Source: Phyllobacterium chamaecytisi
Lineage (GTDB): Bacteria > Pseudomonadota > Alphaproteobacteria > Rhizobiales > Rhizobiaceae
Assembly (NCBI RefSeq): GCF_020164455.1
Contig: NZ_JAIQWW010000002.1
Location: forward strand, 186,001 to 250,000
Length of the DNA: 64,000 nt
Reading direction: 5' to 3'
The notes below the pieces were generated by a model that saw only the letters and a list, made by a program, of their open reading frames with translations, searched no databases and had not been told where the DNA came from. How positions within the stretch are numbered: position 1 is the first letter of the stretch; each line of letters starts with the position of its first letter. Made by a program: the position numbers and the translations under genes. This document shows, piece after piece, positions 43,216 through 63,038 of the stretch.

Positions 43216-43245
43216 CGCAGGCCGCATCGGCATTCGGCCGGGCTT

Positions 43246-43299
43246 AATTGTCGACAATTTACAATGATTGTTGACAATTTACATTCTACATCCTAGTTT
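43246..43299 (+). promoter_or_regulatory. Double GntR-type operator and promoter of the TctCBA-PrpD operon
   Basis: Two copies of the 15-base motif lie 20 bases apart: TGTCGACAATTTACA (43249-43263) and TGTTGACAATTTACA (43269-43283). The first lies in a perfect 14-bp palindrome, AATTGTCGACAATT (43246-43259). Copy two contains a consensus -35 TTGACA (43271-43276), with TAGTTT 17 bases later as a weak -10. The identical motif precedes the other two units of the locus. Confidence 0.75.
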
Positions 43300-43353
43300 T
43301 CTGACGGCGCAATATCTCGCCAAACTTTGCATATTCATCAGGAGACAAGACGC

Positions 43354-44775
43354 GTGAATTTATCTTCCGACATCACGGCACAGGCCATACGTTTTATCGA
43401 ACGCACGACCTATGAGGACCTGCCGGAAGAAGCGCTTGTCGTCGGCCGCCGCTGCATGGTTGACACCGTTGGCCTCTATCTCGCCGGCAGTCGAGAAGCA
43501 TCGGTGCGCATTCTTATCGAAGACGCCCTTGCTCAGGGAGGGCGCGAAGATGCGCCTTTGCCGGGCAACGGATCGGCGAGGGTGCCTGCATCACTGGCCG
43601 CTCGCGTTTGGGGGACTGCCGGGCATGCTCACGATTGGGACGATACACAGGTCTCCCGTGATCCGGCTCATATCTATGGTCTGCTGACCCACCCCTCCGT
43701 TCCACCCCTTACCGCTGCGCTGATCATTGCCAGTGAAAAAGGCAATGTGGATGGTCGGGACCTCATGCTCGCCTTCCAGCTCGGATTTGAAGTCGAGTGC
43801 AAGATTGCCGAGTGGATGAAGCCGCGTCACTATCGCCGCGGACATCATACGAGCGGTACAGTCGGCACCTTTGGCGCGGCAGTTGCCGCTGCCAAGCTTC
43901 TAGGATTGGCCGGAGACAAGCTCGCCCACGCACTCGGATTGGCGGCAAGTTTTGCCGCCGGTATCCGTGTGAATTTTGGCACCATGACCAAGCCGCTCCA
44001 TGTCGGACGTGCGTGCGAAAATGGTGTCACTGCAGCACGTCTCGCTGCAGCTGGTTTCGAAGCGGATCCGGCCGCACTCGACGGCCCCTGGGGCTTCTTT
44101 TCCGTCATGGGCGAGGGCTTTGATGAGGACAAAACCGTGGCCGGTTTCGGCGCTCCTTTGACCATTATCGAACCCGGCGTCAGCATCAAGCCATACCCGT
44201 CGGGTATTCTCACCCATCAATCAATGGACGCGATGCTGAAGCTGGTCCTGGATCACGATCTGAAACCACAAGAGGTCGAACGCATCCGCTTCTTTGCCGG
44301 CAAAAATATCATCGAGCCTATTCGCTATCCAATAGCGCAAAATCATCTCCAGGCTAAATTTTCGATGCCCGCTTTGCTCGCGATGATCGTGTTGTGCCGC
44401 CGCGCCAGTCACCATGAGTTCGAGGACGCGTTTGTAGCCGGAGACGCCATGCAGGACCTGCAAGCGCGTACGGATGTCATCAACGATCTTGAGATCGATG
44501 CGCTCGGTTATGACAAGATCCGCTCGCGTATCGAGGTGATCACCAAGGACGGGCGTACCTTGATACAATGGGCCGATGAGCGCTACCGCGGCGGGCCTTC
44601 CAACCCGATCAGCGATGCTGGACTTGAGGATAAGTTTCGCATGTGCGCGGAGGGCGTCATTGACACCCCTTGCCAGGATGAACTGCTGGAACTGGTGCAG
44701 AGTATCGATAAAGGTGCTGATGTCGGAAGACTTGTTACACTCGTCAGCGGCGAACGGGAACTCGTTACTGAATGA
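43354..44775 (+). CDS. MmgE/PrpD family protein 1
   Basis: 473 residues of the MmgE/PrpD fold (2-methylcitrate dehydratase, cis-aconitate decarboxylase, iminodisuccinate epimerase). Family blocks: HDWDDTQ with YGLLTHPSVPP, KPRHYRRGHHTSGTVGTFGAAVAA, TKPLHVGRACENG and SIKPYPSG. GTG start at 43354 with AGGAGA. It heads the regulon's transport operon. Reaction unknown: it may dehydrate, decarboxylate or epimerise the imported acid. It closely resembles the third PrpD copy at 57825. Confidence 0.9.
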   Translation: MNLSSDITAQAIRFIERTTYEDLPEEALVVGRRCMVDTVGLYLAGSREASVRILIEDALAQGGREDAPLPGNGSARVPASLAARVWGTAGHAHDWDDTQVSRDPAHIYGLLTHPSVPPLTAALIIASEKGNVDGRDLMLAFQLGFEVECKIAEWMKPRHYRRGHHTSGTVGTFGAAVAAAKLLGLAGDKLAHALGLAASFAAGIRVNFGTMTKPLHVGRACENGVTAARLAAAGFEADPAALDGPWGFFSVMGEGFDEDKTVAGFGAPLTIIEPGVSIKPYPSGILTHQSMDAMLKLVLDHDLKPQEVERIRFFAGKNIIEPIRYPIAQNHLQAKFSMPALLAMIVLCRRASHHEFEDAFVAGDAMQDLQARTDVINDLEIDALGYDKIRSRIEVITKDGRTLIQWADERYRGGPSNPISDAGLEDKFRMCAEGVIDTPCQDELLELVQSIDKGADVGRLVTLVSGERELVTE

Positions 44776-44829
44776 CTTGAAGAGAGGGAAGCCGTTCTGA
44801 AGAAACGGTACTTGAAAGGGAGAGAGACA

Positions 44830-45798
44830 ATGAATTTCATGAAATCGATCGGCGTGGCGGCGCTCGGCCTTGCCACTGCCGCTATCTTATCCAGCGCAGC
44901 GGCTAAGGCTGACCCGCTGCCCTATCCTAATAAAGTTGTGACGCTGGTGACCCATTCCAGCCCCGGCGGCGGTAGTGACGTATTCCTGCGCGAAATGACG
45001 AAGTACCTGGGCAAGTATATCGGCGCTACCTTCATCGTGGAAAACGTCCAGGGCGGCAGCGGCGCGAAGGCCATGGCACGCGTTGCGACAGCGCCAGCCG
45101 ATGGTAGCGTGTTCTACGCGACGACACCGACTTACATTTATACTTCGCTGATGAGCAAACCGCAGAATACATACAAGGACATGGATCCGCTGGTGAACAT
45201 TTTCGCCGATAGCGAGGTGATCTATACGCGGACTGATGGGCCTTTCAAGTCGCTGAAAGACGTCATCGACCATGCAAAGAAGGAACGCGGGCGTTGGGGC
45301 GCGGCCAATCCCGCATCGCTGGAACGTCAGGCGGCCGAGCAACTGAAGAAGGCAGCAGGCGTCACACCTGCAATCGTTACCCACGAGGGCGGCGGCGACA
45401 TGATGCTGAATGTTCTCAATGGCACGCTCGATATCGGTATTGGCGAGATCCAGGAATTGCGCTCGCAGCTCGATGCCGGCAAAATCACTTTGCTTGCCAC
45501 CTTCAATCCTGAACGCATTACCGAGAAGCCGGATGTGCCGACTGTGAAGGAATCGGGGTTTGACGTCAGTCTTGTCAAATTCCGCGGCCTCGCCGGTCCC
45601 AAAGGTATTCCGGAGGCCACGACTGCAATCTGGGACGAAGCTGTGAAGAAGCTGCTTGAAGATCCGGATTACAAGAAGGCATATACCGAAGAAGTGCTCG
45701 TCCCTCAGTTTATCGCGCACAAGGACTATCCGGCTTTCATAGATAATTTTGGATCGACAACTGAGGCGTTCCTGAAGTCGACAGGCGCCATCAAATAA
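44830..45798 (+). CDS. Tripartite tricarboxylate transporter binding protein (TctC family)
   Basis: 322-residue periplasmic binding protein with a signal peptide (ends AAAKA, about residue 26). The mature part starts DPLPYPNKVVTLVTHSSPGGGSDVF, the standard TctC/Bug opening; GGSGAKAMARVA and KESGFDVSLVKFRGLAGP are further family blocks. GGGAGAG before the ATG at 44830. Ligands in the family are citrate, terephthalate, nicotinate and other acids, so the exact ligand cannot be read. Confidence 0.93.
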   Translation: MNFMKSIGVAALGLATAAILSSAAAKADPLPYPNKVVTLVTHSSPGGGSDVFLREMTKYLGKYIGATFIVENVQGGSGAKAMARVATAPADGSVFYATTPTYIYTSLMSKPQNTYKDMDPLVNIFADSEVIYTRTDGPFKSLKDVIDHAKKERGRWGAANPASLERQAAEQLKKAAGVTPAIVTHEGGGDMMLNVLNGTLDIGIGEIQELRSQLDAGKITLLATFNPERITEKPDVPTVKESGFDVSLVKFRGLAGPKGIPEATTAIWDEAVKKLLEDPDYKKAYTEEVLVPQFIAHKDYPAFIDNFGSTTEAFLKSTGAIK

Positions 45799-45805
45799 TG
45801 ACGCC

Positions 45806-45834
45806 AGGAGATCGGCCGCGTGGGCCGATCTCCT
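45806..45834 (+). other. Intercistronic hairpin between TctC and TctB
   Basis: A perfect 12-bp stem AGGAGATCGGCC / GGCCGATCTCCT with loop GCGTG, just after the TctC stop and before the TctB start. No U-run. Same position and probable role (more binding protein than permease) as the hairpin after the peptide-binding protein at 39965. Confidence 0.75.
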
Positions 45835-45855
45835 ACAGCGTATGAGGGCCACCCC

Positions 45856-46332
45856 ATGAACAAAGATCTTATCAGCGGCGTTGTTCTTCTTGCCGTCTCC
45901 GGGACGTATTATGCTTGGTCCAGTCAAATCGCCGACAGCACCCTGTCCGATGAAGTGGGTGCCACAGGCTTGCCGCATGTGCTTTCCATCATCCTTGCCA
46001 TTCTTGGTGTCCTTTTGATTGCACGTGCCATACTCCTCAGGCGGGCTAGGACGGCGACCGCAGCAGGTACCGATGATGACCAGGATGCCCACTTGCCCCG
46101 CGCCATCGGGTTTCTTCTTTTGGGCGCAGTCTATGTCTTTGTCCTTCCGTTTATCGGCTATGTCGCGGGTACCGCTCTCCTGATTGGCGCCGTCGCGCTT
46201 TATGAGGGCGCCCCGCGCAACTGGGTGGTATTGGCCGCGGCTGTCGGCGGTGCGGTGTTCTACTGGGCAATTTTCGTCAAACTGCTTGGCGTCCATCAGC
46301 CGGTAGGCTCGCTTTTTCAAGGAATGTTCTGA
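45856..46332 (+). CDS. Tripartite tricarboxylate transporter small subunit (TctB family)
   Basis: 158-residue membrane protein with four hydrophobic segments; small TctB subunits are poorly conserved, and this is identified by size, segments and place between TctC and TctA. The ATG at 45856 is preceded by GAGGG; the stop overlaps the TctA start (TGATG). Confidence 0.87.
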   Translation: MNKDLISGVVLLAVSGTYYAWSSQIADSTLSDEVGATGLPHVLSIILAILGVLLIARAILLRRARTATAAGTDDDQDAHLPRAIGFLLLGAVYVFVLPFIGYVAGTALLIGAVALYEGAPRNWVVLAAAVGGAVFYWAIFVKLLGVHQPVGSLFQGMF

Positions 46333-47828
46333 TGACCACATTCTGGGACATCATCCACCTGCTGACCGAGACCCCACTCTTCTTCGTTGCCATTGGCGGG
46401 CTTACCTGGGGCATTCTTGGCGGTGCTCTGCCGGGCATATCCGCGTCCATCACCATGGCGCTCGTTCTTCCTTTCACTTACACGATGGACCCGGCTCAAG
46501 CGATTGCGCTCCTGGCATGCGTCTATATCGGTGCTGAATATGGCGGGTCGATCCCGGCTATTCTCATAAGAACGCCTGGAACCAACTCTTCCGCTGCTAC
46601 GGTGATCGACGGCTATGAAATGAATCGCCAGGGGCGTGCCGGAGAGGCACTCGGCATTTCGCTGATGTCGGGCGTCGTTGGAAGTCTCTTTGGACTAGCG
46701 ATGCTGATTTTGCTGACCGAGCCCTTATCCTGGCTGGCGCTGGCATTCACCCCGCCATCCTATTTCGGTCTCGGCATCCTCGGCCTCAGCGTCATCGCCT
46801 CCATGAGCGGAGGTTCATTGATCAAGGGCCTTGCAGCCGCGACCGTCGGATTGATGATCGCGACTGTCGGCACGGACCCGATCTCCGGCGTTACACGCTT
46901 CACCTTCGATATTCCCGATCTTCTTGGTGGTATTGAACCCGTACTTGTCATGGTTGGTCTGTTTGCACTTACCGAGCTCATGAGCCAATCCGGGTCGTCA
47001 ACCGTCCTGCAATTGAATGAGACGATCAGGATCAAGCTGCCAAGCTGGTCGATGATGAACAAGCTCAAGCGTTCGCAAACCATCGGCTGTATTCTTGGGT
47101 TGTTCGAGGGCCTGACCCCAGGTGGCGGTGGGTCCATCGCCGCGTTCATGTCCTACAACGAAGCAAAGCGCTGGTCGAAAACGCCGCAGCTTTTCGGCAA
47201 AGGCTCGGAGGAAGGCGTCGCAGCGCCGGAGGCCGCCAATAATACGGTGGCAAGTACCGCGCTGATCCCGCTGCTCAGCTTCGGCATCCCGAGCTCCAAT
47301 TCTACAGCCGTCCTGCTTGGCGGGTTGCTGATGCACGGGCTCATCCCTGGTCCGCGCCTGTTCGAGCAGAGCGCACAGGTCATCGACAGTATCTATGTCG
47401 GCTCGTTCATCGCTATTATTGCGCAGATTGGTGTTGGCATGATCATCCTGCCTGCCTGCATCTGGCTTGTTAACAGACCACGAGCCTATCGGGCGGGGTT
47501 CATTTTTGCCCTGATCCTGTCAGGCATCTTCACCCTGAATAACAGTCTGTTCGATCTCGGCATTGCACTTGCACTCGGCCTGGTTGGCTATCTTATGAGG
47601 ATCGCGGGATTCCCCGTGCTACCGATGATTCTCGGCGTCGTGCTCGGCCACATGGTGGAATCGAGCTATCGCCGTTCGCTCGTTCTGTCAGGCGGCGATC
47701 ACATGATATTCCTTCAGGATCCGATCGCCGTTTGCCTGCTGTCGATCGCTCTCATCTTCGTCGTCTTTTCGCTTAGCCGCGAATTCCGCGACGCCCGCAA
47801 GACCAAAATCGAGGAAGCGCATTCATGA
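46332..47828 (+). CDS. Tripartite tricarboxylate transporter large subunit (TctA family)
   Basis: 498-residue inner-membrane protein with about 10-12 segments. Family marks: GGALPGISASITMALVLPFTYTMDP, YIGAEYGGSIPAILIRTPGTNSSAATVIDG, FEGLTPGGGGSIAAFMSYNEAKRWSK. It uses the ion gradient to drive uptake of the acid delivered by the TctC protein. Coupled to its neighbours by overlaps at both ends. Confidence 0.95.
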   Translation: MTTFWDIIHLLTETPLFFVAIGGLTWGILGGALPGISASITMALVLPFTYTMDPAQAIALLACVYIGAEYGGSIPAILIRTPGTNSSAATVIDGYEMNRQGRAGEALGISLMSGVVGSLFGLAMLILLTEPLSWLALAFTPPSYFGLGILGLSVIASMSGGSLIKGLAAATVGLMIATVGTDPISGVTRFTFDIPDLLGGIEPVLVMVGLFALTELMSQSGSSTVLQLNETIRIKLPSWSMMNKLKRSQTIGCILGLFEGLTPGGGGSIAAFMSYNEAKRWSKTPQLFGKGSEEGVAAPEAANNTVASTALIPLLSFGIPSSNSTAVLLGGLLMHGLIPGPRLFEQSAQVIDSIYVGSFIAIIAQIGVGMIILPACIWLVNRPRAYRAGFIFALILSGIFTLNNSLFDLGIALALGLVGYLMRIAGFPVLPMILGVVLGHMVESSYRRSLVLSGGDHMIFLQDPIAVCLLSIALIFVVFSLSREFRDARKTKIEEAHS

Positions 47829-49195
47829 ACCATTCCGTCCCGACATCGACGCCTGTGGCGGTCAAACTGGCCGCCTTTGCCGAGGAGGCCGCGCCACCAT
47901 CTGCGGTCGCTGATGTCTGCCGTCGCCTGATATTCGATATTATCGGTCTTTCCATCGCTGCAAGACACACGGACTATGTCCGCGCCGCGCTTGCCAGTGC
48001 AGTGGATGAAGGGTCGTGCACGGCCTATGGTCACGATCGCGGCCTTGGGCTTTACGATGCCGCGCTCGTCAATGGTACAGCCGCCCACGGAGAAGACTAT
48101 GACGACACTTTTGAAGGCGGGCCCATCCACGCCGGCGCGGTAATCGTCTCGGCTGTTCTGGCGATCGCCGAAAAACGCGGTCTCGATGGCAAGGCAGTGA
48201 TGCGCGGCATCGCGGTTGGTTCCGAATTGATGTGCCGGATGAGCCTCGTTGCACCGCAGGCGACCCACAAGGCCGGCTTCCACCCCACTGCAATATTTGG
48301 TGCTCCCGCCGCCGCCGCCGCCGTTGGTGCGGCACTCGGTCTCGACGCTGCAACGATCGGCAGAGCGCTCGGCATTTCCGGCAGTCTCGCGTCCGGCATC
48401 ATCGAGTATCTCGCCGATGGCAGTTCGACCAAGCGCCTGCATGCCGGGGCTGCGGCACAGGCCGGGTTGCGCGCTGCCCTTCTTGCAGAAGGAGGGTTCA
48501 CCGGACCTATCACGGTCTTCGATGGTTCGCACGGCTTCTACAAGGCCTTTGCTCCGTCGAAGACGCCAGATTTCGCACCGCTGCTTGATGGTCTGGGCAA
48601 AACCTGGATCCTGGAGACGCTGGCTTTCAAGCCTTACGCGTGCGGGACCATGACGCAGCCCTTTATCGACTGCGCGAGAAAGCTGGCAGCTGCTGGCGTG
48701 CTACCGGCGGATATTGTTTCCATCACTTGCAAGGTAGGTGAGGGCACTGTTCATCGCCTGTGGGAACCACTCGCTGAAAAGCACCGGCCACCCAATGGCT
48801 ATGCCGGCAAATTCTCCACTCCCTTCTGCATGGCAGTCGGTTTCCTCGACGGTGAGGCGGGTCTCGGGCAGTTTACCAATGAACGTGTCAAGGACCCGGA
48901 GGTGCGGGCACTTGCCGCCAGGATCTCCTACGAAATCGATCCTAACGATCCTTATCCCAAAAACTTCACCGGCCACCTCAAGGCAACCCTAAAGGACGGA
49001 ACCGTCCACGAGTTCAGGCAGCCGTACATGCGCGGCGGCGCACATGAACCATTGCCGGATGCCGAACTGGCTTCCAAGTTCGAGGCCAATTTGCGGTTCG
49101 GCGGCTTTGACAGCGGCAAGATCGCAGCATTGCGTGACACCCTCAATCAGATAGCAGAGGGTCGCAAAGTCGATTTGAGGGCGGCGCGGGCATGA
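47825..49195 (+). CDS. MmgE/PrpD family protein 2
   Basis: 456-residue member of the same family but a different branch from copies 1 and 3: HGEDYDDTFEGGPIHAGAV, HKAGFHPTAIFGAPAAAAA, STKRLHAGAAAQAG and FKPYACGTMTQPFIDC replace the corresponding blocks. Starts inside the TctA end (ATGA overlap), ends inside the SDR start (ATGA overlap). Its distinct active-site blocks suggest it does a different step from copies 1 and 3. Confidence 0.9.
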   Translation: MNHSVPTSTPVAVKLAAFAEEAAPPSAVADVCRRLIFDIIGLSIAARHTDYVRAALASAVDEGSCTAYGHDRGLGLYDAALVNGTAAHGEDYDDTFEGGPIHAGAVIVSAVLAIAEKRGLDGKAVMRGIAVGSELMCRMSLVAPQATHKAGFHPTAIFGAPAAAAAVGAALGLDAATIGRALGISGSLASGIIEYLADGSSTKRLHAGAAAQAGLRAALLAEGGFTGPITVFDGSHGFYKAFAPSKTPDFAPLLDGLGKTWILETLAFKPYACGTMTQPFIDCARKLAAAGVLPADIVSITCKVGEGTVHRLWEPLAEKHRPPNGYAGKFSTPFCMAVGFLDGEAGLGQFTNERVKDPEVRALAARISYEIDPNDPYPKNFTGHLKATLKDGTVHEFRQPYMRGGAHEPLPDAELASKFEANLRFGGFDSGKIAALRDTLNQIAEGRKVDLRAARA

Positions 49196-49956
49196 GCAAG
49201 GACAATCGTGAACTCAAGGGCCGTGTAGCATTGGTAACGGGCGCATCGCGCAATATCGGACGCGCTATCGCGCTTGCGCTGGCCGAGGCAGGTGCTTCAA
49301 TCGCCATCGTCGCAAGGTCTGATCAAGCAGCGGCCGAATCCGTGGCGCGTGAAGTAGAGACGCAGGGTAGCCGGGCAATTGTGCTTCTCGGCGACGTGGC
49401 GCAAGAGGCCGATGCGGAGCGGCTCGTCGGCAAGACTGTGGAAGTTCTGGGTCGTCTCGATCTTCTCGTCAACAATGCAGCCATCCGGCGGGAGGCTCCA
49501 GTCGAGAAGTTGTCTTTCACCGACTGGCGCGAAGTCATGGGTGTGACGCTGGACGGAGCGTTCCTGATGAGCCGCGCTGCAATCCCCCATCTGATCGCAG
49601 GCGAGGGGGGAGCAATCGTCAATATCGGTGGTCTTACCGCCTATACCGGGGCGACGAACCGCGCCCACGTCATTTCAGCCAAGGCCGGGCTCGATGGGTT
49701 CACCAAGGCCTTGGCGCATGAGCTTGGTCCGCGGGGCGTTACCGTGAACCTGGTCTCGCCCGGAATGATCGATACCAATCGCGCACATACCTCATCCGGA
49801 GGCGAGCCGGCGCACCATAATACGACGCGTACACTGGTCGGCCGGCGCGGCACACCTGAAGAAGTTGCGGCGGCCGTGCGCTATCTTGCCAGCCCGGCAG
49901 GCCGCTTCGTGACGGGACAAACAATGCATGTGAACGGTGGGGCTTTCCTGCCCTGA
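49192..49956 (+). CDS. SDR-family oxidoreductase
   Basis: 254-residue short-chain dehydrogenase: TGASRNIGRAIA at the N-terminus (Asn in place of the usual Gly), NNAAIR, catalytic Ser position occupied in NIGGLTAYTGATNRAHVISAK, where the strict YxxxK reading is replaced by H-V-I-S-A-K with Tyr several residues earlier. This is an atypical active site, so oxidoreductase activity should not be assumed. Last tightly coupled gene of the transport operon. Confidence 0.8.
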   Translation: MSKDNRELKGRVALVTGASRNIGRAIALALAEAGASIAIVARSDQAAAESVAREVETQGSRAIVLLGDVAQEADAERLVGKTVEVLGRLDLLVNNAAIRREAPVEKLSFTDWREVMGVTLDGAFLMSRAAIPHLIAGEGGAIVNIGGLTAYTGATNRAHVISAKAGLDGFTKALAHELGPRGVTVNLVSPGMIDTNRAHTSSGGEPAHHNTTRTLVGRRGTPEEVAAAVRYLASPAGRFVTGQTMHVNGGAFLP

Positions 49957-50092
49957 AGCGCGGTGCGGAGTGGTCACGACAATATGTGCTGAACACGTGA
50001 AATTGCCGGTTGACTAACGCCAGCAGGAGACCCAAGACGAGATCAGCGCGTATCAAGTTAGAGTCGTTCAGCCCAAGCAACGGACACAACCC

Positions 50093-50653
50093 TTGACTTC
50101 TCCAGTCCCTGCCTCTCCGCTAGAAACACCACGCCTTCGGTCTCTCTTTCTCCTCTGCTTCAAGATCGGTGTCTTGAGTTTCGGTGGAGGCCTCAGCGGC
50201 TGGCTCTACAGGGAGTTCGTCCTCAGCAAGCGCTGGATCGACGAAGAGGATTTCTCAAGCAGTCTGGCGATTTCGCAAATGCTGCCTGGTGCGAATGTGG
50301 TCAATCTGGTCATCTGCATGGGTGAACAGTTGCGCGGGCCTGTGGGCGCCTTAACCTGCGTTCTTGGTTTTCTTGTCGGTCCGTTCTTTGCGGTCGTGGG
50401 TCTTTGCCAGTTGTTCGATGCCCTTGCTGGCTATCCCTTGCTGCCGGTGATTTCGGACGGCGTGGCCTTCGCTGCAATGGGCCTCTTGATCATCATGTGT
50501 GTTCATGGCGTTCGCAGGGCGATGCGATTTCCTCCATCCATTGTTACCATTGCGGTGACGGCGATACTTGTCGGGATTTTCCGCTTTCCCCTCATCCCCG
50601 TTGCCTGCGTCATCGCCCCGATCAGTGTCGCTCTGGCCTGGCGGAGAATCTGA
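50093..50653 (+). CDS. Chromate transporter, short ChrA-type half (first)
   Basis: 186-residue membrane protein of the CHR family (single-domain short form). FKIGVLSFGGGLSGWLYREFV is the standard first block; QMLPGANVVNLVICMG and FLVGPFFAVVGLC follow. In short-chain CHR pairs two such proteins form the exporter of chromate or another oxyanion. Starts at a TTG (50093), as no ATG or GTG is in frame. The stop is one base from the next GTG. Confidence 0.85.
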   Translation: MTSPVPASPLETPRLRSLFLLCFKIGVLSFGGGLSGWLYREFVLSKRWIDEEDFSSSLAISQMLPGANVVNLVICMGEQLRGPVGALTCVLGFLVGPFFAVVGLCQLFDALAGYPLLPVISDGVAFAAMGLLIIMCVHGVRRAMRFPPSIVTIAVTAILVGIFRFPLIPVACVIAPISVALAWRRI

Positions 50654-50654
50654 A

Positions 50655-51209: not shown

Positions 51210-52220
51210 CGCCTTGAGCCGTTTGAACTGGACCAGCCTGCTTGCCAGGTTGATGGCGTTTTCAAACGCGCCTGTATCTGCCACGCCTTTGCCGGCGATA
51301 TCAAACGCTGTCCCGTGCGCGGGAGTTGTGAAAACGGTATCGAGGCCAGCAGTTACGGTCACACCCCGATTGAATCCGCGCATCTTCGTCGCGATCTGGC
51401 CCTGGTCATGATACATGGAAAGAACGCCGTCATAATCTCCGGCAAAAGCCTTGAGATAGACTGTATCGGACGGGAAGGGACCCTCGCAGTTGATGCCCTT
51501 CGCTGCCATGGCTTGAACAGCCGGGCGAATGATCTCGATTTCCTCGGTTCCGAACAGACCGCCTTCGCCGCCGTGTGGATTGAGCGCGGCGACGGCAAGC
51601 CGTGGAGACTCGATACCCGCCTTCTTCATCATCGTCGTCGCCAGAACAATTGCATCTTCGATTGCCGGGCGGTTGATCTGCTCGACCGCCTGTCTGAGCG
51701 AAACATGCGATGTGACGCGGGACATCCACTGATTGTCGAGCACATTCATCTCGCTGAAATAGCCCTTGTGGCCGAGCAGATGAGCGAACATCTTGTGCTC
51801 GTCGGGAAATTTCCATCCGCCATCATACATGGCGCGTTTGTTGAGCGGTGCGAAGGAAACCGCGTCGACCTCACCGGCCTTGGCGAAATCGATTGCCCGT
51901 GACAATGTCTCACCGGTTACGCGACCGGATTCCGCGCTGCCGACCCCGGGTGCATAAAGTGCGGGATCCGTATTGGCGAGATCGACGAGAGGAACAGCAT
52001 CATCAGACCAGTCGATCGCAGCAGGGGATGTATAGCGCTTATAGACGACTGATACGCCTGCCTGTTGCATTCCGACATCGATGACCCGTGCATCGCCAAC
52101 GACCACGATGCGGGCGGTGCCCGACATCCGCCGGTCGTGCAAAATTCGCGCGGTTTGCTCCGGACCAATCCCGGTGCAGTCGCCGGGTGTCAGGGCAATG
52201 ATCGGCAGCTCTGATTTCAT
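51198..52220 (-). CDS. PdxA-family 4-phospho-dehydrogenase homologue
   Basis: 340-residue protein of the PdxA family (4-hydroxythreonine-4-phosphate dehydrogenase). Blocks: IALTPGDCTGIGPEQTARIL, NPHGGEGGLFGTEEIEII, GPFPSDTVYLKAFAGDYDGVLSMYHDQGQIATK and TPAHGTAFDIAGKGVA. PdxA2-type copies in catabolic loci act on sugar-acid phosphates (threonate or erythronate) rather than on vitamin B6 synthesis; here it is last of a three-gene operon with two tartrate-type dehydrogenases. The usual partner kinase (DUF1537) is not nearby. Start coupled to the upstream stop (ATGA). Confidence 0.9.
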   Translation of the reverse strand: MKSELPIIALTPGDCTGIGPEQTARILHDRRMSGTARIVVVGDARVIDVGMQQAGVSVVYKRYTSPAAIDWSDDAVPLVDLANTDPALYAPGVGSAESGRVTGETLSRAIDFAKAGEVDAVSFAPLNKRAMYDGGWKFPDEHKMFAHLLGHKGYFSEMNVLDNQWMSRVTSHVSLRQAVEQINRPAIEDAIVLATTMMKKAGIESPRLAVAALNPHGGEGGLFGTEEIEIIRPAVQAMAAKGINCEGPFPSDTVYLKAFAGDYDGVLSMYHDQGQIATKMRGFNRGVTVTAGLDTVFTTPAHGTAFDIAGKGVADTGAFENAINLASRLVQFKRLKALQA

Positions 52221-53320
52221 GATGCCCTCGACGCGTTGGAATTGGATGAGGAAAGCGCCTCCGCCACCGCCCTGCCACACGTGATCGTGTTGGCGGTGCC
52301 GCCGAGATCGCCGGTCCGTGAAGAGGGATCGGCGAGGACGGCCTCGATTGCGTCTATGATAGCTGCCGCCGCCTGCGGGTGACCGAGATGTTCCAGCATC
52401 ATGGCTCCCGCCCAGATTTGCCCGATCGGGTTGGCGATGCCCTTGCCGGCGATATCGGGCGCCGAACCATGAACCGGCTCGAACAGCGACGGAAAATTGC
52501 GCTCCGGGTTAATGTTGCCGGAAGGCGCGATGCCGATGGTTCCCGTGCAGGCGGGGCCAAGGTCCGAGAGGATATCGCCGAAAAGATTGGATGCCACGAC
52601 GACATCGAAACGATCGGGGTTGAGCACGAAGTGCGCGCAAAGAATATCGATGTGATACTTGTCCCAGCGCACGTTGGCGTAGGACTTCGCCATCTCTTCC
52701 ACCCGCTCGTCCCAATAGGGCATGGTGATCGAAATGCCGTTGGATTTTGTCGCTGACGTCAGGTGTTTCTTGCCTCGGCTCTGAGCGAGATCGAAGGCAA
52801 AACGGAGAATCCGATCGACGCCGATGCGGCTCATCACCGTCTCCTGAACGACGATCTCCCGCTCCGTTCCAGGATACATCTTGCCGCCGATCGAAGAATA
52901 TTCGCCCTCGGTGTTTTCCCGGACGACAAAGAAATCGATATCGCCCGGCTTGCGACCTGCCAATGGTGACGGCACTCCCGGCATAAGCCGCACGGGGCGC
53001 AGGTTCACATATTGGTCGAATTCGCGCCGAAACTGCAGGAGCGAACCCCATAGGGAAATATGGTCGGGCACAGTCTCCGGCCAGCCAACGGCGCCGAAGA
53101 AGATCGCGTCATGGCCGCCGATCTGCGCCTTCCAGTCCTCGGGCATCATGCGGCCGTGCTTCGCGTAATAGTCGCACGAGGCAAAGTCGAACGTGTCGAA
53201 CTTCAGATCGAGGTCGAATTTGTCCGCGGCCGTTTCGAGGACGCGCAATCCTTCCGGGACTACCTCTTTTCCGATGCCGTCGCCGGCAATCACCGCAATC
53301 TTGAGACTGTTGGCTGGCAT
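52217..53320 (-). CDS. Tartrate dehydrogenase/decarboxylase (TtuC-like)
   Basis: 367-residue NAD-linked beta-decarboxylating dehydrogenase, family of isopropylmalate, isocitrate and tartrate/D-malate dehydrogenases. VIAGDGIGKEVVPEGLRVL, VRENTEGEYSSIGGKMYPG and SNLFGDILSDLGPACTGTIG are typical for TtuC. The catalytic Lys lies in TSATKSNGI, and the NAD-loop block is EPVHGSAPDIAGKGIANPIG. Likely acts on tartrate, D-malate or a related hydroxy acid. Confidence 0.92.
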   Translation of the reverse strand: MPANSLKIAVIAGDGIGKEVVPEGLRVLETAADKFDLDLKFDTFDFASCDYYAKHGRMMPEDWKAQIGGHDAIFFGAVGWPETVPDHISLWGSLLQFRREFDQYVNLRPVRLMPGVPSPLAGRKPGDIDFFVVRENTEGEYSSIGGKMYPGTEREIVVQETVMSRIGVDRILRFAFDLAQSRGKKHLTSATKSNGISITMPYWDERVEEMAKSYANVRWDKYHIDILCAHFVLNPDRFDVVVASNLFGDILSDLGPACTGTIGIAPSGNINPERNFPSLFEPVHGSAPDIAGKGIANPIGQIWAGAMMLEHLGHPQAAAAIIDAIEAVLADPSSRTGDLGGTANTITCGRAVAEALSSSNSNASRAS

Positions 53321-53332
53321 CTTGTTTCCTTC

Positions 53333-54409
53333 CTACTCGTTGTCGCCGAGGATGGCCGCACAGACCGCATCGGTGACCATGTCCGTCGTTGCATTGCCGC
53401 GAAGGTCCGGTGTGTGCAGTGCCGGGTCAGCAGTGACCCGTTCGATGGCGCGCATAAGCCTGGCCGCGGCCGTGGGCTCGCCGAGATGTTCGAGCATCAT
53501 GACCGCCGACCAGAATGTCCCCACCGGGTTAGCGATCCCCTTGCCGGTGATATCAAACGCCGAGCCATGGATGGGTTCGAACATCGAAGGAAAACGTCCT
53601 TCGGGATTCAGGTTAGCGGTTGGCGCAATGCCGATCGATCCGGCGAGTGCGGCGGCTAGGTCAGAGAGAATATCGGCATGAAGGTTTGTAGCGACAATCG
53701 TATCGAGCGATCGCGGGTTGAGCGTCATGCGTACGGTCATTGCGTCGACCAGCATCTTGTCCCAGGTAACATCGGGAAAATCGCTTGCAACCTCTCGGGC
53801 GATCTCATCCCATAATACCATGCCATGGCGCTGGGCGTTCGATTTGGTGACGACGGTCAGGAGCTTGCGCGGCCGCGATTGCGCGAGCTGGAAAGCAAAG
53901 CGCATGATGCGGGAAACGCCAGCACGCGTGAAGATCGAGACTTCCGTCGCCACCTCTTCCGGCAAGCCCCGGTGCGAGCGGCCACCCTGGCCGGCATATT
54001 CCCCCTCGGAATTCTCGCGAACGATTACCCAATCGAGATCCTCGGCAGTAACACCCCGTAACGGGCTTTCGATGCCCGGCAGAATACGGGTCGGGCGTAC
54101 ATTGGCGTATTGGTCGAAAGGCTGGCAAATGGCGAGGCGCAGGCCCCATAGCGTCAAGTGGTCAGGAACATCGGGCGCACCCACTGCACCGAAATAGATA
54201 GCGTCGAAGGCTTTCAATTTGTCGATGCCGCCCTCGGGCATCAGGACACCATTCGCCTTGTAGAAATCCGATCCCCAAGGGAAATTATCGACATCGACAG
54301 TAAAATTGCCATCGCGGGTTGCGCAGGCATCAAGGACACGAAGCCCGGCGGCAACAACCTCCTTGCCAATACCGTCGCCCGGAATGGCTGCAATCTTGTG
54401 TGTCTTCAT
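53333..54409 (-). CDS. Isocitrate/isopropylmalate/tartrate dehydrogenase family protein 2
   Basis: 358-residue paralogue: AIPGDGIGKEVVAAGLRVLDAC, VRENSEGEYAGQGGRSHRG, VVTKSNAQRHGMVLWDE and EPIHGSAFDITGKGIANPVG. The last differs from the usual SAPDIAG (SAFDITG), and the substrate-binding helix differs from the first copy, so the two are probably not redundant. ATG at 54409 with AAGGAG; 12 bases before the next gene. Heads the left-running operon controlled by the motif at 54494. Confidence 0.9.
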   Translation of the reverse strand: MKTHKIAAIPGDGIGKEVVAAGLRVLDACATRDGNFTVDVDNFPWGSDFYKANGVLMPEGGIDKLKAFDAIYFGAVGAPDVPDHLTLWGLRLAICQPFDQYANVRPTRILPGIESPLRGVTAEDLDWVIVRENSEGEYAGQGGRSHRGLPEEVATEVSIFTRAGVSRIMRFAFQLAQSRPRKLLTVVTKSNAQRHGMVLWDEIAREVASDFPDVTWDKMLVDAMTVRMTLNPRSLDTIVATNLHADILSDLAAALAGSIGIAPTANLNPEGRFPSMFEPIHGSAFDITGKGIANPVGTFWSAVMMLEHLGEPTAAARLMRAIERVTADPALHTPDLRGNATTDMVTDAVCAAILGDNE

Positions 54410-54477
54410 TGATTGACTCCTTGGCGGCGCATTTGGCAATTCCGTTTCCATATACTCGGATGACGATTTTTTTCATG

Positions 54478-54508
54478 ATTGTCAATTATAAATTGTTGAC
54501 AATTTACA
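54478..54508. promoter_or_regulatory. GntR-type operator between dehydrogenase and hydrolase genes
   Basis: TGTTGACAATTTACA (54494-54508) is identical to the second copy at 43269. A second half-site upstream makes an inverted repeat TTGTCAA-N10-TTGACAA (54479-54502). It lies in the 166-base divergent region between the gene starting at 54409 (leftwards) and the hydrolase at 54576 (rightwards), so it can control both. Confidence 0.75.
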
Positions 54509-54575
54509 GAAATGGGCATGACGTGATCTCCAGGATATCCTGCATGATTGATAGCAAGCGAGAAGGAGAAATGCG

Positions 54576-55529
54576 ATGTCGCTGACAGAGTCGATGTCCA
54601 AGGTGCCCCCGTTCTTTGAAGAAAAGGGAAAGCTGATGCACGGTTTCCGCTATGAGCGGATACGAACTGCGGGCGCAGAGATCAATGTAGCGATCGGCGG
54701 TGAGGGGCCGCCGCTTCTGCTGTTGCACGGCAATCCGCTGACCCATGTCAGCTGGCATAGGATCGCGCCCGCGCTCGCCAAAAGTTTTACTGTTGTTGCC
54801 CCCGACCTGCGCGGCTATGGCGACAGTTCGAAGCCGGATGGAGGAGACGATCATTCGGCTTACTCATTCCGTGCCATGGCGCAGGACAACGCAGAAGTCA
54901 TATCGCATTTTGGCTTCGAGAAGTTTCAGGTTGCGGGACATGATCGCGGTGCGCGCGCTGCTTTCCGTATGGCGCTCGATTTTCCCGATCGCGTTGAGCG
55001 GCTGGCTTCGCTCGATATCGTTCCGACATATCATGCCCTTACCAACGTTACACTTGGCTGGGGGCTCGAGGCCTATCATTGGTTTTTCATGGCGCAAAAG
55101 GCACCATTCCCTGAAAAGCTGCTGACAGCTGACCTTGATTACTACATCGACTACAAACTCAACAAGAAAGGCGTTGGCCTTGAAATCTTCAGCCCGGAAG
55201 CGATGGCTGAATACAAGCGCTGTACCACGCCTGAACAGATCCATGCGGTATGCGAAGACTACCGGGCGACTGTCAGCGTCGATCTCGCCATGGACACGGC
55301 AGACTTCGGCAATCGCAAGATCGACTGTCCGGTGCTGGTTCTGTGGGGTTCCAACAGCCATTGTGGGCGTCATTTCGCTCCGCTCGAGGCATGGAGGCCC
55401 TGGGCTCCCGACATGCGAGGCTGGGCGATGCCAACCGGCCATTATCCGGCTGAACAACGTCCCGATCTTGTCTATGACGCATTTTGGAAATTCTTCAACG
55501 GCCAGGAGCCGGAAGAGATCAAGGCTTAG
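54576..55529 (+). CDS. Alpha/beta hydrolase, fluoroacetate-dehalogenase-like
   Basis: 317-residue haloalkane-dehalogenase-fold hydrolase. Nucleophile Asp in GHDRGARAAFR, with both Arg of the carboxylate clamp (DRGAR); DLRGYGDSSKP before it; YHWFF carries the His-Trp halide pair and EYKRC the Tyr; the His base is in PTGHYPAEQRPD. In known fluoroacetate dehalogenases these are the Asp nucleophile, two Arg, His/Trp/Tyr halide pocket and His base. The sequence therefore supports a defluorinase or haloacetate dehalogenase, though related epoxide or ester hydrolases share the fold. Strong AAGGAG before the ATG. Confidence 0.82.
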   Translation: MSLTESMSKVPPFFEEKGKLMHGFRYERIRTAGAEINVAIGGEGPPLLLLHGNPLTHVSWHRIAPALAKSFTVVAPDLRGYGDSSKPDGGDDHSAYSFRAMAQDNAEVISHFGFEKFQVAGHDRGARAAFRMALDFPDRVERLASLDIVPTYHALTNVTLGWGLEAYHWFFMAQKAPFPEKLLTADLDYYIDYKLNKKGVGLEIFSPEAMAEYKRCTTPEQIHAVCEDYRATVSVDLAMDTADFGNRKIDCPVLVLWGSNSHCGRHFAPLEAWRPWAPDMRGWAMPTGHYPAEQRPDLVYDAFWKFFNGQEPEEIKA

Positions 55530-55569
55530 TTCAAAGACTGCGCTGTAGGCCACAGAAATGGCGCTGTTA

Positions 55570-55615
55570 CCCTCCCCCCTATGAGGAGGGAGGCTGCGAA
55601 GCAGCAGGGAGGGGT
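55570..55615. repeat. Palindromic repeat element (REP-like) between convergent genes
   Basis: CCTCCC-C-CCT pairs with AGG-A-GGGAGG around an ATG loop, followed directly by a GCTGC-GAA-GCAGC hairpin and another AGGGAGGGG run. Such G/C-run double hairpins are repeated intergenic elements in Brucella/Rhizobium relatives. Sits between the hydrolase and the convergent dehydrogenase, so it may also terminate both. Confidence 0.55.
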
Positions 55616-55635
55616 CTTTGAACGAACTTGGCGAA

Positions 55636-56706
55636 CTAACCCAGCGCCGCAATAATTCCCCTTGTCATTCCGGCAGTGTCAGCAGTCCCCTTGATATCGC
55701 GTGTACGCGTGGCGGGATCGCCGAGTGCCGTAGCAATTGCTTTCTCCATGATGGACGCTGCCTCCACGGCCTGCGCTATCTTGCGGTTATGGCCCAGCCA
55801 CTCGATCATCATCCGTGCGGATTCGATCATGGCGAATGGGTTGGCTATGCCCTTGCCGGCGATATCTGGAGCGGAGCCGTGTGTGGCCTGCGCCATCGCC
55901 AGATTGCCCTCACCGATGCACAAGCCGGGTGCCATGCCGAGACCGCCGACGAGCCCCGCAGCCTCGTCCGTCAATATATCGCCAAACATGTTGGTGGTAA
56001 CGATGACGTCAAAACTCTGCGGATCGCGTATCAGACGCATTGCCATGGTGTCGACGATCACCTCGTCGACAGCCACCTCGGGGAATTCCTTGGCGACCCG
56101 ATGGCACTCTTCAACGAACATGCCGCAACCAAGCTTGAACACGGTGTTTTTGTGGACAAGCGTCAGGCGTTTTTTGCGTTGCTGCGCGATTTCGAATGCC
56201 GCCCGTGCCACACGCGATGAGCCCACGCGCGTAATGACGCGAACAGAGATCGTCACATCTTCCGTCGGCCGGAATTCGCCAGAGCCGGCAACCACGTTGC
56301 GGTCGGGCTGGAACCCCTCATTATTCTCGCGCACGATGACGAGATCGATGCCCTCGTGAATCGCCCCAAGCCCAGGAAAGGACTTCGTCGGACGGACATT
56401 GGCGAAGAGGTTGAAGCCCTTGCGCATGATCGGGTGCGGATTGATCGCGCCGGGAACCTTTGGATAGGCCTGATGTCCGATTGGACCGAGAATGAAGCCA
56501 TCCATCTTCGAAAGCGTTTCCATCGTGCCTTCAGGAAAAGTCGAGCCGTGCGTGTCAAGCGCCGACCGACCGATCGGCATCGGCCGCCAATCGATTTGCA
56601 GACCCGTCTTGGCAGCAGCCGCGCGCGTTACTTCGACGGCTGCTGGCACGATTTCATGGCCGATATCATCGCCGTTTAAAATGCCGATCACGAGATGGCT
56701 TGTCAT
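55636..56706 (-). CDS. Isocitrate/isopropylmalate dehydrogenase family protein 3
   Basis: 356-residue dehydrogenase of the same superfamily, more distant: ILNGDDIGHEIVPAAVEVTRAA at the N-terminus (Asn-Gly-Asp-Asp instead of PGDGIG), IVRENNEGFQPDRNVVAGSG, LTLVHKNTVFKLGCGMFVEEC with the catalytic Lys, TTNMFGDILTDEAAGLVGG and THGSAPDIAGKGIANPFAM. It is the third dehydrogenase of the locus and lies last in the operon PrpD3-AbrB-dehydrogenase. Confidence 0.9.
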   Translation of the reverse strand: MTSHLVIGILNGDDIGHEIVPAAVEVTRAAAAKTGLQIDWRPMPIGRSALDTHGSTFPEGTMETLSKMDGFILGPIGHQAYPKVPGAINPHPIMRKGFNLFANVRPTKSFPGLGAIHEGIDLVIVRENNEGFQPDRNVVAGSGEFRPTEDVTISVRVITRVGSSRVARAAFEIAQQRKKRLTLVHKNTVFKLGCGMFVEECHRVAKEFPEVAVDEVIVDTMAMRLIRDPQSFDVIVTTNMFGDILTDEAAGLVGGLGMAPGLCIGEGNLAMAQATHGSAPDIAGKGIANPFAMIESARMMIEWLGHNRKIAQAVEAASIMEKAIATALGDPATRTRDIKGTADTAGMTRGIIAALG

Positions 56707-56718
56707 GGAACAATCCTT

Positions 56719-57813
56719 TCAATCAGAGGATGCGTCGAGGCGACGCGAAAAGGTTTCAAATATTCGAAACGTGAAGAGGATCGTCGTCATCACCACAGCA
56801 ATCCGGGTGATCTGGAATGCGGTGACGGTCGTCGCATCGAGATGCATCCCCGTAGCGGTGAGGGCCATTTCAGTGACCCCGGCCGGCGCTACGGCTAGTA
56901 AGCTGGTGACGAACGAAAGGCCCGTCGCCGCCGAAAGCGCCCAGGCTATTGCCATGGCAACAGCGAGCAGGAACGCCGTGGTGACAAGAGCCGAAGACGT
57001 CACACGCCACAGCCTGCCGAGGAGCGATCGTCTGAAGCGGCAGCCAAGCCAAACGCCTATGACCACCTGTGCGATCGTAAGCACGGTCGACGGAACCGCG
57101 AACGGCCCAAAGCCAAAGCCGGAAACGAGAGCGCCTATCGCCGCCGGGACAAGCAGCCAGGTATTGGGCAGCTTCAATCTCCGCACGAGAAATGCAGCGG
57201 CAGCTCCCACGACGAACAGGGCAACAAGCGGGATCGCTTCGCCCCGAAAAGGTATCGGCGTCAGATGAATACCGCCATCCTCGCCAAATATCGTTACCAG
57301 GAACGGAACGATCGTTACGATCGAAGTAACGCGGATCAAATGGACCACAGCGACAGTATCACTGTCCGCGTTTTTCTGATGGGCGACCACGGCCATTTCC
57401 GCAAGGCCGGCAGCAGCGGTAGCGAAGAAAGCGGTCTTGCGATCCGTTCCCGCAAGCTTTTGCAATAACAACGCGGCAATCATCGTTGCCGCGATCATCA
57501 AAATCGTTGCAAGGAGCATGAACGGAAGCAATTTAGCGATTGCAATGACCACGACTGGAACAAAGCGCAAACCAATGGCGAGCCCGACTGCCACCTGCCC
57601 GAGCTCCCGGCCATAAGGCAATGCTGCAAGGGGAGCCCCCATGATCGAGGCGCTCCCACAGGCCAGAAGCGGCCCCAGAAGATACGGTAGCGGCATCGAT
57701 ATACTTTTAGCAGCGACAGCCCCTGCAATGCCGATCAGTACTGCCAGACCCATTCTCGCGGGGGTGCGGTCGAAGACACGCGGACCGCCACCCAATGTTC
57801 CCGAGTCTGGCAT
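56719..57813 (-). CDS. AbrB-family membrane transporter
   Basis: 364-residue membrane protein with about 10 hydrophobic segments, of the AbrB (AbrB_2, formerly 'ammonia monooxygenase') family. Two copies of an internal repeat are seen, each beginning with LLGPLL or LVPAAIGAL and ending with an (A)GLAEMA or AGVTEMA(L) motif. The family is associated with uptake of organic acids in regulons of the same kind; substrate not defined. Middle gene of its operon. Confidence 0.85.
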   Translation of the reverse strand: MPDSGTLGGGPRVFDRTPARMGLAVLIGIAGAVAAKSISMPLPYLLGPLLACGSASIMGAPLAALPYGRELGQVAVGLAIGLRFVPVVVIAIAKLLPFMLLATILMIAATMIAALLLQKLAGTDRKTAFFATAAAGLAEMAVVAHQKNADSDTVAVVHLIRVTSIVTIVPFLVTIFGEDGGIHLTPIPFRGEAIPLVALFVVGAAAAFLVRRLKLPNTWLLVPAAIGALVSGFGFGPFAVPSTVLTIAQVVIGVWLGCRFRRSLLGRLWRVTSSALVTTAFLLAVAMAIAWALSAATGLSFVTSLLAVAPAGVTEMALTATGMHLDATTVTAFQITRIAVVMTTILFTFRIFETFSRRLDASSD

Positions 57814-57824
57814 GATGATTTTCG

Positions 57825-59240
57825 TCAGGCGACAGAGATGAGACGCGCTGACAGATCGTCCAGAGTGCTAAGGGTTTCCAGCCCGCGCACCAGTTCGACG
57901 ATCTCATCCGCCTTGCTGCGGGACATCCCTGCGAACTCGGCGTTCTCACGGAACTTGTTTGCTACCTCGTCATAGCTCATGGGGAATGCCGGGCTGCCCT
58001 TGCCAAAATCGGCGCGCCCGGAAATCTTGCGGCCATCCTTGAGTTCGATATCGATCAGCGTTGTCATAAGGTGATAGCCTGCTGCTTCGGCCTCGTCGTC
58101 TATAACGAAATCGACCTTCTCGATCATCGCCTTGACGTCCTCGCGTTCGACCGCAGCGTCTGTAAACTCGTTGAGGCCGGCACGGCCTTCGAGCAGCAGG
58201 ATCGCCATGCAGAATTCCATGGAGAATTTCGCCTGGAGTTCATCCTTCGGACGATGATGGATCAAGGCATTTGGCATATTGGAATTGGTGCCAACGCGTA
58301 CATGCTTCACGTCCTCGGTGCGAATGCCATGCTCTTTGATCAATCGCAGCATTTCGGTCATTCCGGGATGGGTGAGGGAGCCCGACGGATGCGGTTTGAT
58401 GGAGATGCCGGGATTGGCGAAAGTCCAGGGGGCGCCCAATTTGTCGAAGATGGCACTCTGATCGTAGCCGCCGCCCGCTGCAGCAAAGAACCCGCGCGGT
58501 GCCTCGAGTATCCGAGGCGTGGCGGTCCAGCCATAGGACGCGAACTGTGCCGCCGCAACGCCGCTTTCCGAGGACCGCCCCGCATGGAATGGTTTTGTCA
58601 TCGTGCCGAAATTCTCGCGCAGACCAGCGGACTGGCTGCCCGCAATCGATAGCGCACGCTGCGTGGTCGCAACGTCGAAGCCCATTAGTCTGGCACTCGC
58701 TGCGGCGGCGGCGAAAGTTCCACATGTAGCTGTCGCGTGAAAGCCTGTCTGGTAGTGACGGGGCGCGATTGCTTCGGCGATCTTGCATTCGACCTCGACG
58801 CCGAGATGGTATGCCAGCATGAAGTCCTTGCCGGAAGACCTGACAAGTTCGCCGATCGCAAAGGCAGCTGGCAAGGCAGGCGCCGTCGGATGTGTGAGCA
58901 GGCCATAGACACGGTCTTTGGCGACGGCCAATTGTGTGTCGTCATAATCATCCGCGTGGATGCCAACACCGTTGGCAAATGCAGCGAACCGAGGTGCTAC
59001 CTTGCGGCCACCGCCGATAACGGTCGCGGCGCCGTCAGCAAGCCCGAGATCTCCGAGATGCTGGCGAACGAGTTCGCCGCTTTTGGCGACCGAACCGGAC
59101 AGTGCAAGACCGAAGCCGTCGAGTATCGATTTCTTGCCTAACTCGATAACTTCCGTCGAAAGATCGGCAAATGCTGTCTCGACCACGAATTCGGCCACGT
59201 ATTTCGTCAGCTCGATATCGACTGCCTTGTTCTGATTCAT
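57825..59240 (-). CDS. MmgE/PrpD family protein 3
   Basis: 471 residues; closest to copy 1. Shared blocks: GVGIHADDYDDTQ, YGLLTHPTAPALPAAF, PRHYQTGFHATATCGTFAAAAASARL, TKPFHAGRSSESG and SIKPHPSGSLTHPGM. AGAGGATTT precedes the start. Copies 1 and 3 probably arose by duplication and may use related or stereoisomeric substrates. Heads the operon to AbrB and dehydrogenase 3. Confidence 0.92.
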   Translation of the reverse strand: MNQNKAVDIELTKYVAEFVVETAFADLSTEVIELGKKSILDGFGLALSGSVAKSGELVRQHLGDLGLADGAATVIGGGRKVAPRFAAFANGVGIHADDYDDTQLAVAKDRVYGLLTHPTAPALPAAFAIGELVRSSGKDFMLAYHLGVEVECKIAEAIAPRHYQTGFHATATCGTFAAAAASARLMGFDVATTQRALSIAGSQSAGLRENFGTMTKPFHAGRSSESGVAAAQFASYGWTATPRILEAPRGFFAAAGGGYDQSAIFDKLGAPWTFANPGISIKPHPSGSLTHPGMTEMLRLIKEHGIRTEDVKHVRVGTNSNMPNALIHHRPKDELQAKFSMEFCMAILLLEGRAGLNEFTDAAVEREDVKAMIEKVDFVIDDEAEAAGYHLMTTLIDIELKDGRKISGRADFGKGSPAFPMSYDEVANKFRENAEFAGMSRSKADEIVELVRGLETLSTLDDLSARLISVA

Positions 59241-59287
59241 CCCAAATCCTCTTATGTCACGTCTGTCTTGAGTAAATTCTCAAATCG

Positions 59288-59320
59288 ACTGTGCTGGGAG
59301 GATTGTTAATTGTCAACAGT
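59288..59320 (-). promoter_or_regulatory. GntR-type operator upstream of the PrpD3 operon
   Basis: On the minus strand TGTTGACAATTAACA (59318-59304) matches the motif at 54494 in 14 of 15 positions. It again contains TTGACA (59316-59311); 17 bases later is CACAGT, a weak -10. Located between the GntR stop and the PrpD3 start. Confidence 0.72.
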
Positions 59321-59358
59321 TTTGTGTTTGCAAAAACCTCGAGCCATCGTGGACTGGA

Positions 59359-60229: not shown

Positions 60230-60237
60230 AACTTGCT

Positions 60238-61971: not shown

Positions 61972-61977
61972 GATCAA

Positions 61978-63024: not shown

Positions 63025-63038
63025 GCATAGTTCCTCCC

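Follow-up and report, generated by a model that had tools for sequence, protein, structure and literature searches.

Members of the FadR subfamily of GntR regulators are mostly metabolite-released repressors. The 64,000-nucleotide stretch of Phyllobacterium chamaecytisi DNA considered here (contig NZ_JAIQWW010000002.1, positions 186,001 to 250,000 of the forward strand, or C12:186001-250000; hereafter the window) carries a catabolic locus beside gntR, a gene for a regulator of this subfamily, GntR-A. Four copies of an A/T-rich dyad lie within the window and a fifth lies just past its end, before four operons of the locus. These sites are read here as the operators of one local regulon, with GntR-A as a predicted metabolite-released repressor covering the -35 box of the four operons (probability about 0.82, from sequence comparison).

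FadR-subfamily operators are described as A/T-rich dyads with GT and AC 2-3 bases apart in TKGT/ACMA boxes (PMC4494728), and the operator class found here, the dyad with a 2-nt spacing, is in that respect already known. The locus resembles the systems covered in that source in having a regulator with GntR and FCD domains, a 2-nt-spaced A/T-rich dyad and local control of acid catabolism. It differs from the groups described there in its targets, which include three PrpD proteins, IMDH and TtuC dehydrogenases, a tripartite tricarboxylate transporter and an ABC transporter, and in its left half-box, where CTGT is commoner than TTGT. Other bacteria have a FadR-subfamily PrpR group (PMC4494728). 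PrpD-family enzymes are common to the locus and to Prp/2-methylcitrate catabolism; unlike in that pathway, neither prpB nor prpC was found among the 20 proteins scanned.

The best NCBIfam match of GntR-A (188.6 bits), and of its paralogue GntR-B in relatives (218.9 bits), is phnR_burk (TIGR03338), but both proteins fall under the curated cut-off of 271.5. The linked ABC proteins best match PhnT2, PhnS2 and PhnU2, yet also under the cut-offs (350 of 458, 88 of 393 and 174 of 593, respectively), and no phosphonate-cleaving enzyme was found among the same 20 proteins. A limited literature search, made without most subscription papers or RegPrecise, found no report of this operator, regulon or gene set among the matches listed, and "undescribed", as the first-pass annotation had called the regulon, is a provisional term.

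Operator sites and their conservation

Four copies of a 15-base repeat had been listed in the first-pass annotation. They are present at 43249, 43269, 54494 and (minus strand) 59304-59318, each with 0 mismatches to TGTYGACAATTWACA; the 43269 and 54494 copies are identical, the remaining two are each one base off, and the tandem pair near 43.25 kb has a spacing of 20 bp. The repeat had been set out of register, TGT and ACA being separated by two bases and not one, and TTGACA, attributed to every copy, is found in three of the four, the 43249 copy being TGTCGACA, with TCGACA. The element is a dyad of about 22 bp with core YTGTY-RACAR (extended form about TGTAAATTGTY-RACAATTTACA), and its centres are at 43252/3, 43272/3, 54497/8 and 59314/5. 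Searching the window with TGTYGACAATTWACA at up to 3 mismatches gives 8 matches versus 2.42 expected from shuffles: the 4 exact ones, 2 that read the 43249 and 54494 sites in reverse, and 2 with 3 mismatches.

A symmetric position weight matrix (PWM) of 24 columns was built from 39 sites at loci outside Phyllobacterium (L017 and L019-L038, 21 of the 27 loci compared below), so that it is independent of the six Phyllobacterium loci, of the window, and of most genomes in the gntR-B, paralogue and prpD3-promoter comparisons. It finds exactly four matches in the window, the next score being 9.3 bits. The best is operator 3 (54486..54509, plus strand, 36.9 bits), in the gap between the divergent ttuC2 and hydrolase genes, followed by operator 4 (59303..59326, minus strand, 29.0 bits), which precedes prpD3. 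Before prpD1 stand operator 1 (43241..43264, plus strand, 27.7 bits), the upstream member of the tandem pair, with the perfect dyad ATTGTCGACAAT as its core, and operator 2 (43261..43284, plus strand, 23.8 bits), the second member. A half-site-like TTGTCAAT lies about 15 bp upstream of the operator 3 centre (54472-54495) and is exact in 14 of 21 hydrolase promoters, as counted by eye; it is reminiscent of the extra boxes in FadR-subfamily sites, placed at 7-12 nt in PMC4494728.

The first-pass view that no additional copy exists holds within the window but not beyond it. A fifth, more diverged copy, CTGTTGACAGTCTTCA, is at C12:250186-250201 (64186-64201 on the window scale), and the corresponding operator 5 (64185-64208 on that scale, L039:2186-2209, 27.0 bits) lies before the ABC operon; it is 185 bp outside the window, and the ABC ATPase gene likely starts about 90 bp further on (start chosen by eye). 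The three control regions named earlier are therefore joined by a fourth, and the locus extends over about 21 kb instead of the 17 kb first given.

The motif is specific to the locus in the assembly (6,358,476 bases, 93 contigs). Matches to TTGTYGACAATTWACA with 0-1 mismatch occur at the four window sites only, as had been anticipated. Up to 2 mismatches give 11 rows (reversed-pattern control 3), of which the 7 with 2 mismatches comprise 2 that read these sites in reverse and 5 places elsewhere. The 16-mer pattern YTGTYRACARTHWWCA, which covers all five operators, has 5 exact matches in 6.36 Mb, all at the locus, and its reversed control has 0.

Relatives were compared through 27 loci (L012-L038), obtained by scanning genome contigs with the GntR, and through the 27 whole genomes (about 147 Mb). 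In line with the first-pass reading, the motif is essentially confined to the locus in these genomes and stands before the same set of genes in Phyllobacterium, Rhizobium, Mesorhizobium, Pseudaminobacter, Aureimonas, Mangrovicella, Shinella, Devosia, Paracoccus, Falsochrobactrum and Achromobacter. PWM matches of at least 18 bits number 78 in the 524 kb of the 27 loci (60 column-permuted matrices: mean 0.07, maximum 3), with at least one in every locus and none inside the genes recognised by homology to 21 query proteins. In the whole genomes the exact pattern has 63 matches, 61 of them at the locus (49 within the fetched stretches and 12 within 10 kb more) and 2 elsewhere, with 2 control matches. 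One of the off-locus matches (L110) precedes a prpD2-like gene adjoining an abrB gene, and the other (L109) is without matrix support.

Where gene order varies, the operator stays with the promoter of its target instead of keeping to the gntR end. In Paracoccus (L036, L037) and Shinella (L033) prpD3 lies elsewhere in the opposite direction and has its own site; in Pseudaminobacter (L023) the hydrolase gene, found across the ABC operon from its usual place, likewise has one. All 76 sites that were aligned have the GT-NN-AC arrangement. The outer T/A of the TTGT/ACAA boxes is found in 33 of the 76 left halves (42 have C there) and in 64 of the 76 right halves. Conservation covers both dyad arms, with a mean of 1.1-1.45 bits per column across 22 bp versus 0.1-0.5 in the flanks.

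Promoter overlap and proposed control by GntR-A

The orientation of TTGACA was scored at 94 sites whose target could be assigned from a fixed gene list, independently of orientation; the repeats L081, L084 and L086 were dropped, and the count takes in close Phyllobacterium relatives. The centre is asymmetric at 86 of them, and at 83 of these TTGACA faces the target; where a single gene is possible, the figure is 57 of 58. TTGACA faces the hydrolase at operator 3, as it does at 20 of 21 sites in divergent hydrolase gaps (1 reads away), and it is directed toward the ABC operon at 24 of 24 sites before it, operator 5 included.

Candidate -10 hexamers were sought at 68 target-facing sites, from which repeat and near-duplicate loci (L012-L014, L037, L075-L077, L081, L084, L086) were dropped. 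A hexamer with A2 and T6 at 17-bp spacing is present in 51% of these promoters and in at most 13% at other spacings from 10 to 25; the shares are highest for the ABC operon (80% of 20) and prpD3 (62% of 21). At operator 2, TTGACA (43271-43276), a 17-bp spacer and TAGTTT (43294-43299) likely form the prpD1 promoter, and at operator 4 the minus-strand TTGACA (59316-59311) is followed by a 17-bp spacer and CACAGT. An operator on the -35 box would suit repression through exclusion of the polymerase.

GntR-A (59359..60114, minus strand) has the domain layout of the FadR subfamily, with Pfam GntR (PF00392, 57.5 bits, cut-off 27) and FCD (PF07729, 77.7 bits, cut-off 24.3) domains. Aligned to the FCD structure 3sxy, its residues N145, H149, H193 and H215, which we take to be the FCD metal ligands (D/N, H, H, H), are the same in all 28 GntR-A sequences (that of the window among them) and in all 6 of GntR-B.

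That the FCD-GntR is the regulator, as the first-pass annotation had put forward, is supported by the co-occurrence of motif and protein in 247 genomes of the family. The exact pattern is present in 7 of the 8 genomes with GntR-A (at least 73% identity) versus 29 of the 239 without it (Fisher p 6e-6), and in 6 of 12 that have only a weaker GntR match (38-47%). Of the 247, 15 have an orthologue of prpD3, and each of these belongs to the 20 whose GntR match reaches E 1e-40 or better (hypergeometric p 4e-20, with relatedness ignored). A PWM site lies within about 320 bp upstream of prpD3 in 14 of these 15 (window included), the best site scoring at least 18.6 bits in each.

From this we infer the following mechanism. 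A dimer of GntR-A would bind the 22-bp dyad, core YTGTYRACAR, over the -35 box of four promoters and exclude RNA polymerase until an acid or intermediate of the pathway, bound in the FCD domain's metal-type pocket, releases it. The predicted regulon comprises prpD1-tctCBA-prpD2-SDR, the hydrolase gene (possibly with the divergent ttuC2-ttuC1-pdxA), prpD3-abrB-IMDH3 and the ABC operon. The latter reads toward gntR on the same strand, and a consensus scan between the two gave no terminator, so operator 5 may also control gntR and thereby complete a loop of negative feedback.

The same operators might instead serve a GntR-A that activates or has a dual role, since the upstream tandem copy sits 20 bp above the operator on the -35 box, a position that activators also use. 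Most sites, however, overlap a TTGACA in fixed phase, about half of them with the -10-like hexamer at 17 bp, and FadR-subfamily members act mostly as metabolite-released repressors, so an activating role is unlikely.

GntR-B, other paralogues and the remaining alternatives

The prpD1 operon begins with gntR-B in six relatives (P. pellucidum, P. sophorae and four Rhizobium-type genomes); the gene product is 38-44% identical to GntR-A, and one operator lies about 50 bp before the matched start of the gene. The window and four relatives (P. onerii, P. trifolii, P. bourgognense and P. endophyticum) have no gntR-B at this place and carry two operators 20 bp apart directly before prpD1 (the second copy of P. 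endophyticum scores 16.6). The comparison excludes L085, which has a 48% identical PrpD1 match and no site, and L086, which concerns PrpD3 and not PrpD1. In a tree, GntR-A (16 rows, support 100/100) and GntR-B (7 rows, 100/99) form separate clades; the row L029_A is the GntR-B of that locus, and the rows marked "other" are long branches.

Operator 2 and its spacer resemble the gntR-B promoters of relatives, and the prpD1 promoter TTGTTGACAATTTACATTCTACATCCTA is nearly the same as the gntR-B promoter CTGTTGACAATTTACATTCTACTTCCTA of R. populisoli, a likeness that suggests loss of gntR-B with retention of its promoter. A handover of control can be envisaged, at about even odds: gntR-B would once have run prpD1-tctCBA from an autoregulated promoter, and the clade of the window would have lost gntR-B while keeping and doubling the operator-promoter. 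GntR-A would then have taken over through the shared operator, merging two acid-uptake modules into one regulon.

These paralogues give some ground for a second alternative, in which the operators are bound by a paralogous FCD-GntR, or by a regulator whose gene lies elsewhere, and GntR-A controls something else. GntR-B and other GntRs of about 40% identity adjoin similar operators in relatives, and no operator lies immediately before gntR-A in the window. The window genome, however, is without a GntR-B elsewhere (the best match is GntR-A itself at 43%, the next 34-35%), and across genomes the pattern tracks GntR-A. The one further regulator noticed beside the locus, also of GntR type (L039:2334-3065), was rejected as the binder, since it is present at 97% or more in only 4 of the 27 loci, though regulators were not listed exhaustively there. 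Binding by another regulator is quite improbable.

The view that the repeats are merely similar sigma-70 promoters (-35 TTGACA and a common spacer), which would account for TTGACA with a 17-bp-spaced -10-like hexamer in about half of the 68 promoters, is scarcely credible, as both dyad arms are conserved over 22 bp well above the flanks, operator 1 has TCGACA, and the exact pattern occurs nowhere else in a promoter-rich genome.

Several observations weigh against repression of the four operons by GntR-A. The genomes are related, so counts across them are not independent, and GntR is present in all 27 loci because the loci were fetched with it. Exact pattern matches are absent from 4 of the 27 genomes, although PWM sites occur at their loci, and with one mismatch YTGTYRACARTHWWCA matches 13 other places in the window genome (the reversed control gives a total of 7 with 0-1 mismatch). 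Of the 8 family genomes with GntR-A, G037 is without the exact pattern, having a 28.3-bit site before its prpD3, and G188 has a GntR match with one stop codon; the prpD3 promoter of G102, one of 15, is without a PWM site. TTGACA reads away from the target at 3 of the 86 sites, and 8 more sites have other centres. The hydrolase -10 is weak (18% of 17 promoters at 17 bp, 29% at 18 bp), and gntR-B promoters give 0 of 7 by the A2/T6 rule, their hexamers averaging 3.0 of 6 TATAAT positions. A consensus promoter scan of 59200-60500 returns no promoter, the proposed prpD3 promoter included, which is thus at best weak. Finally, since GntR paralogues of about 40% identity adjoin similar operators, the operator sequence alone does not single out GntR-A.

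Genomes with paralogues of about 40% identity also carry prpD3-like or prpD-like operons (L097, L099-L101, L104, L119-L121, L123 and L125) whose first gene is preceded by two operators at a distance of 143-177 bp, an arrangement that suggests looping or two promoters. A contrast in the recognition helix (GTSRGP/RNRGVF in paralogues without an operator versus G[VI]SRGP/PNRGFF in those with one) was dropped, because wider flanks revealed PWM sites before prpD3 in 6 of the 7 family genomes that combine prpD3 with a paralogue of the first kind; in 5 of these the sites form a pair separated by 143-177 bp. A palindrome search in the short gaps of the paralogue loci gave few palindromes, mostly GC-rich and chance-like.

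Genes of the locus and the predicted pathway

The first operon, on the plus strand, begins with prpD1 (43354..44775; MmgE/PrpD family, Pfam PF03972/PF19305; start codon chosen by eye) and continues with tctC, tctB and tctA (44812..47828), assigned by Pfam to the tripartite tricarboxylate transporter. These are followed by prpD2 (MmgE/PrpD) and an SDR oxidoreductase gene (47825..49956), also assigned by Pfam and placed in the operon by spacing and strand. Two ChrA-type genes of the chromate transporter family (50093..51209, plus strand, PF02417) lie downstream and are possibly read through from the prpD1 operon. Such a short ChrA-type pair is an odd neighbour for an acid pathway, and matches to it occur in 9 of the 27 loci.

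On the minus strand, divergent from the hydrolase gene, are pdxA-like, ttuC1 and ttuC2 (tartrate-dehydrogenase family; 51198..54451), assigned by Pfam and NCBIfam. TtuC1 (572.3 bits) and TtuC2 (562.8 bits) are both above the cut-off of tartrate dehydrogenase TIGR02089 (470.4), and IMDH3 (238.9 bits) is under it. The plus-strand hydrolase gene (54576..55529) encodes an alpha/beta hydrolase of the fluoroacetate-dehalogenase family, as judged by its relatives in PDB. It is closest to Alr0039 and fluoroacetate dehalogenases, its nearest solved structures being 3qyj (E 4e-86) and 9c9f (E 4e-80). The HDRGAR, HW, CEDYRA and GH stretches align with both structures and may supply the Asp, Arg, His, Trp and Tyr of the active site in characterised members of the family. 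An operator precedes the hydrolase gene in 20 of the 27 loci.

The operon prpD3-abrB-IMDH3 (55636..59240, minus strand) comprises prpD3 (57825-59240), a gene for an AbrB-type membrane protein (56719-57813) and IMDH3, for a beta-decarboxylating dehydrogenase (55636-56706), all assigned by Pfam. The PrpD proteins are far under the prpD equivalog cut-offs: against NF042438 (950) PrpD2 scores 59.4, PrpD3 39.5 and PrpD1 18.7, and against TIGR02330 (2-methylcitrate dehydratase PrpD) PrpD3 scores 19.4 of 458. The PDB neighbours of PrpD2 and PrpD3 are IDS-epimerase first and then IRG1 proteins. The ABC transporter operon (60238..64000, minus strand; permease, binding protein and ATPase) is PhnU2/S2/T2-related, and the PDB matches of its binding protein include iron-, pyridoxal-phosphate- and aminoethylphosphonate-binding proteins.

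By their family assignments, the enzymes point to the breakdown of hydroxylated or unsaturated di- or tricarboxylic acids, and the PDB and family searches gave family-level relatives only, fixing no substrate. In Falsochrobactrum a further site (L108:9065-9089, 24.3 bits) is at the start of a reading frame that resembles an M20-type peptidase by eye; it is possible that this frame is an extra member of the regulon and a hint of an amide substrate.

With these operators, some 21 kb of catabolic genes whose annotation was vague can be treated as a single unit open to test: it has a named switch and five operators, and its genes are predicted to be co-expressed. The arrangement is conserved in Achromobacter as well as in several alphaproteobacterial families. 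Comparison with gntR-B provides a natural example in which one paralogous repressor has apparently taken the place of another at a common operator. The predicted regulon would provide a route to the pathway substrate, through the acids that release GntR-A from its operator, and membership in it a route to the natural role of the fluoroacetate-dehalogenase-like hydrolase.

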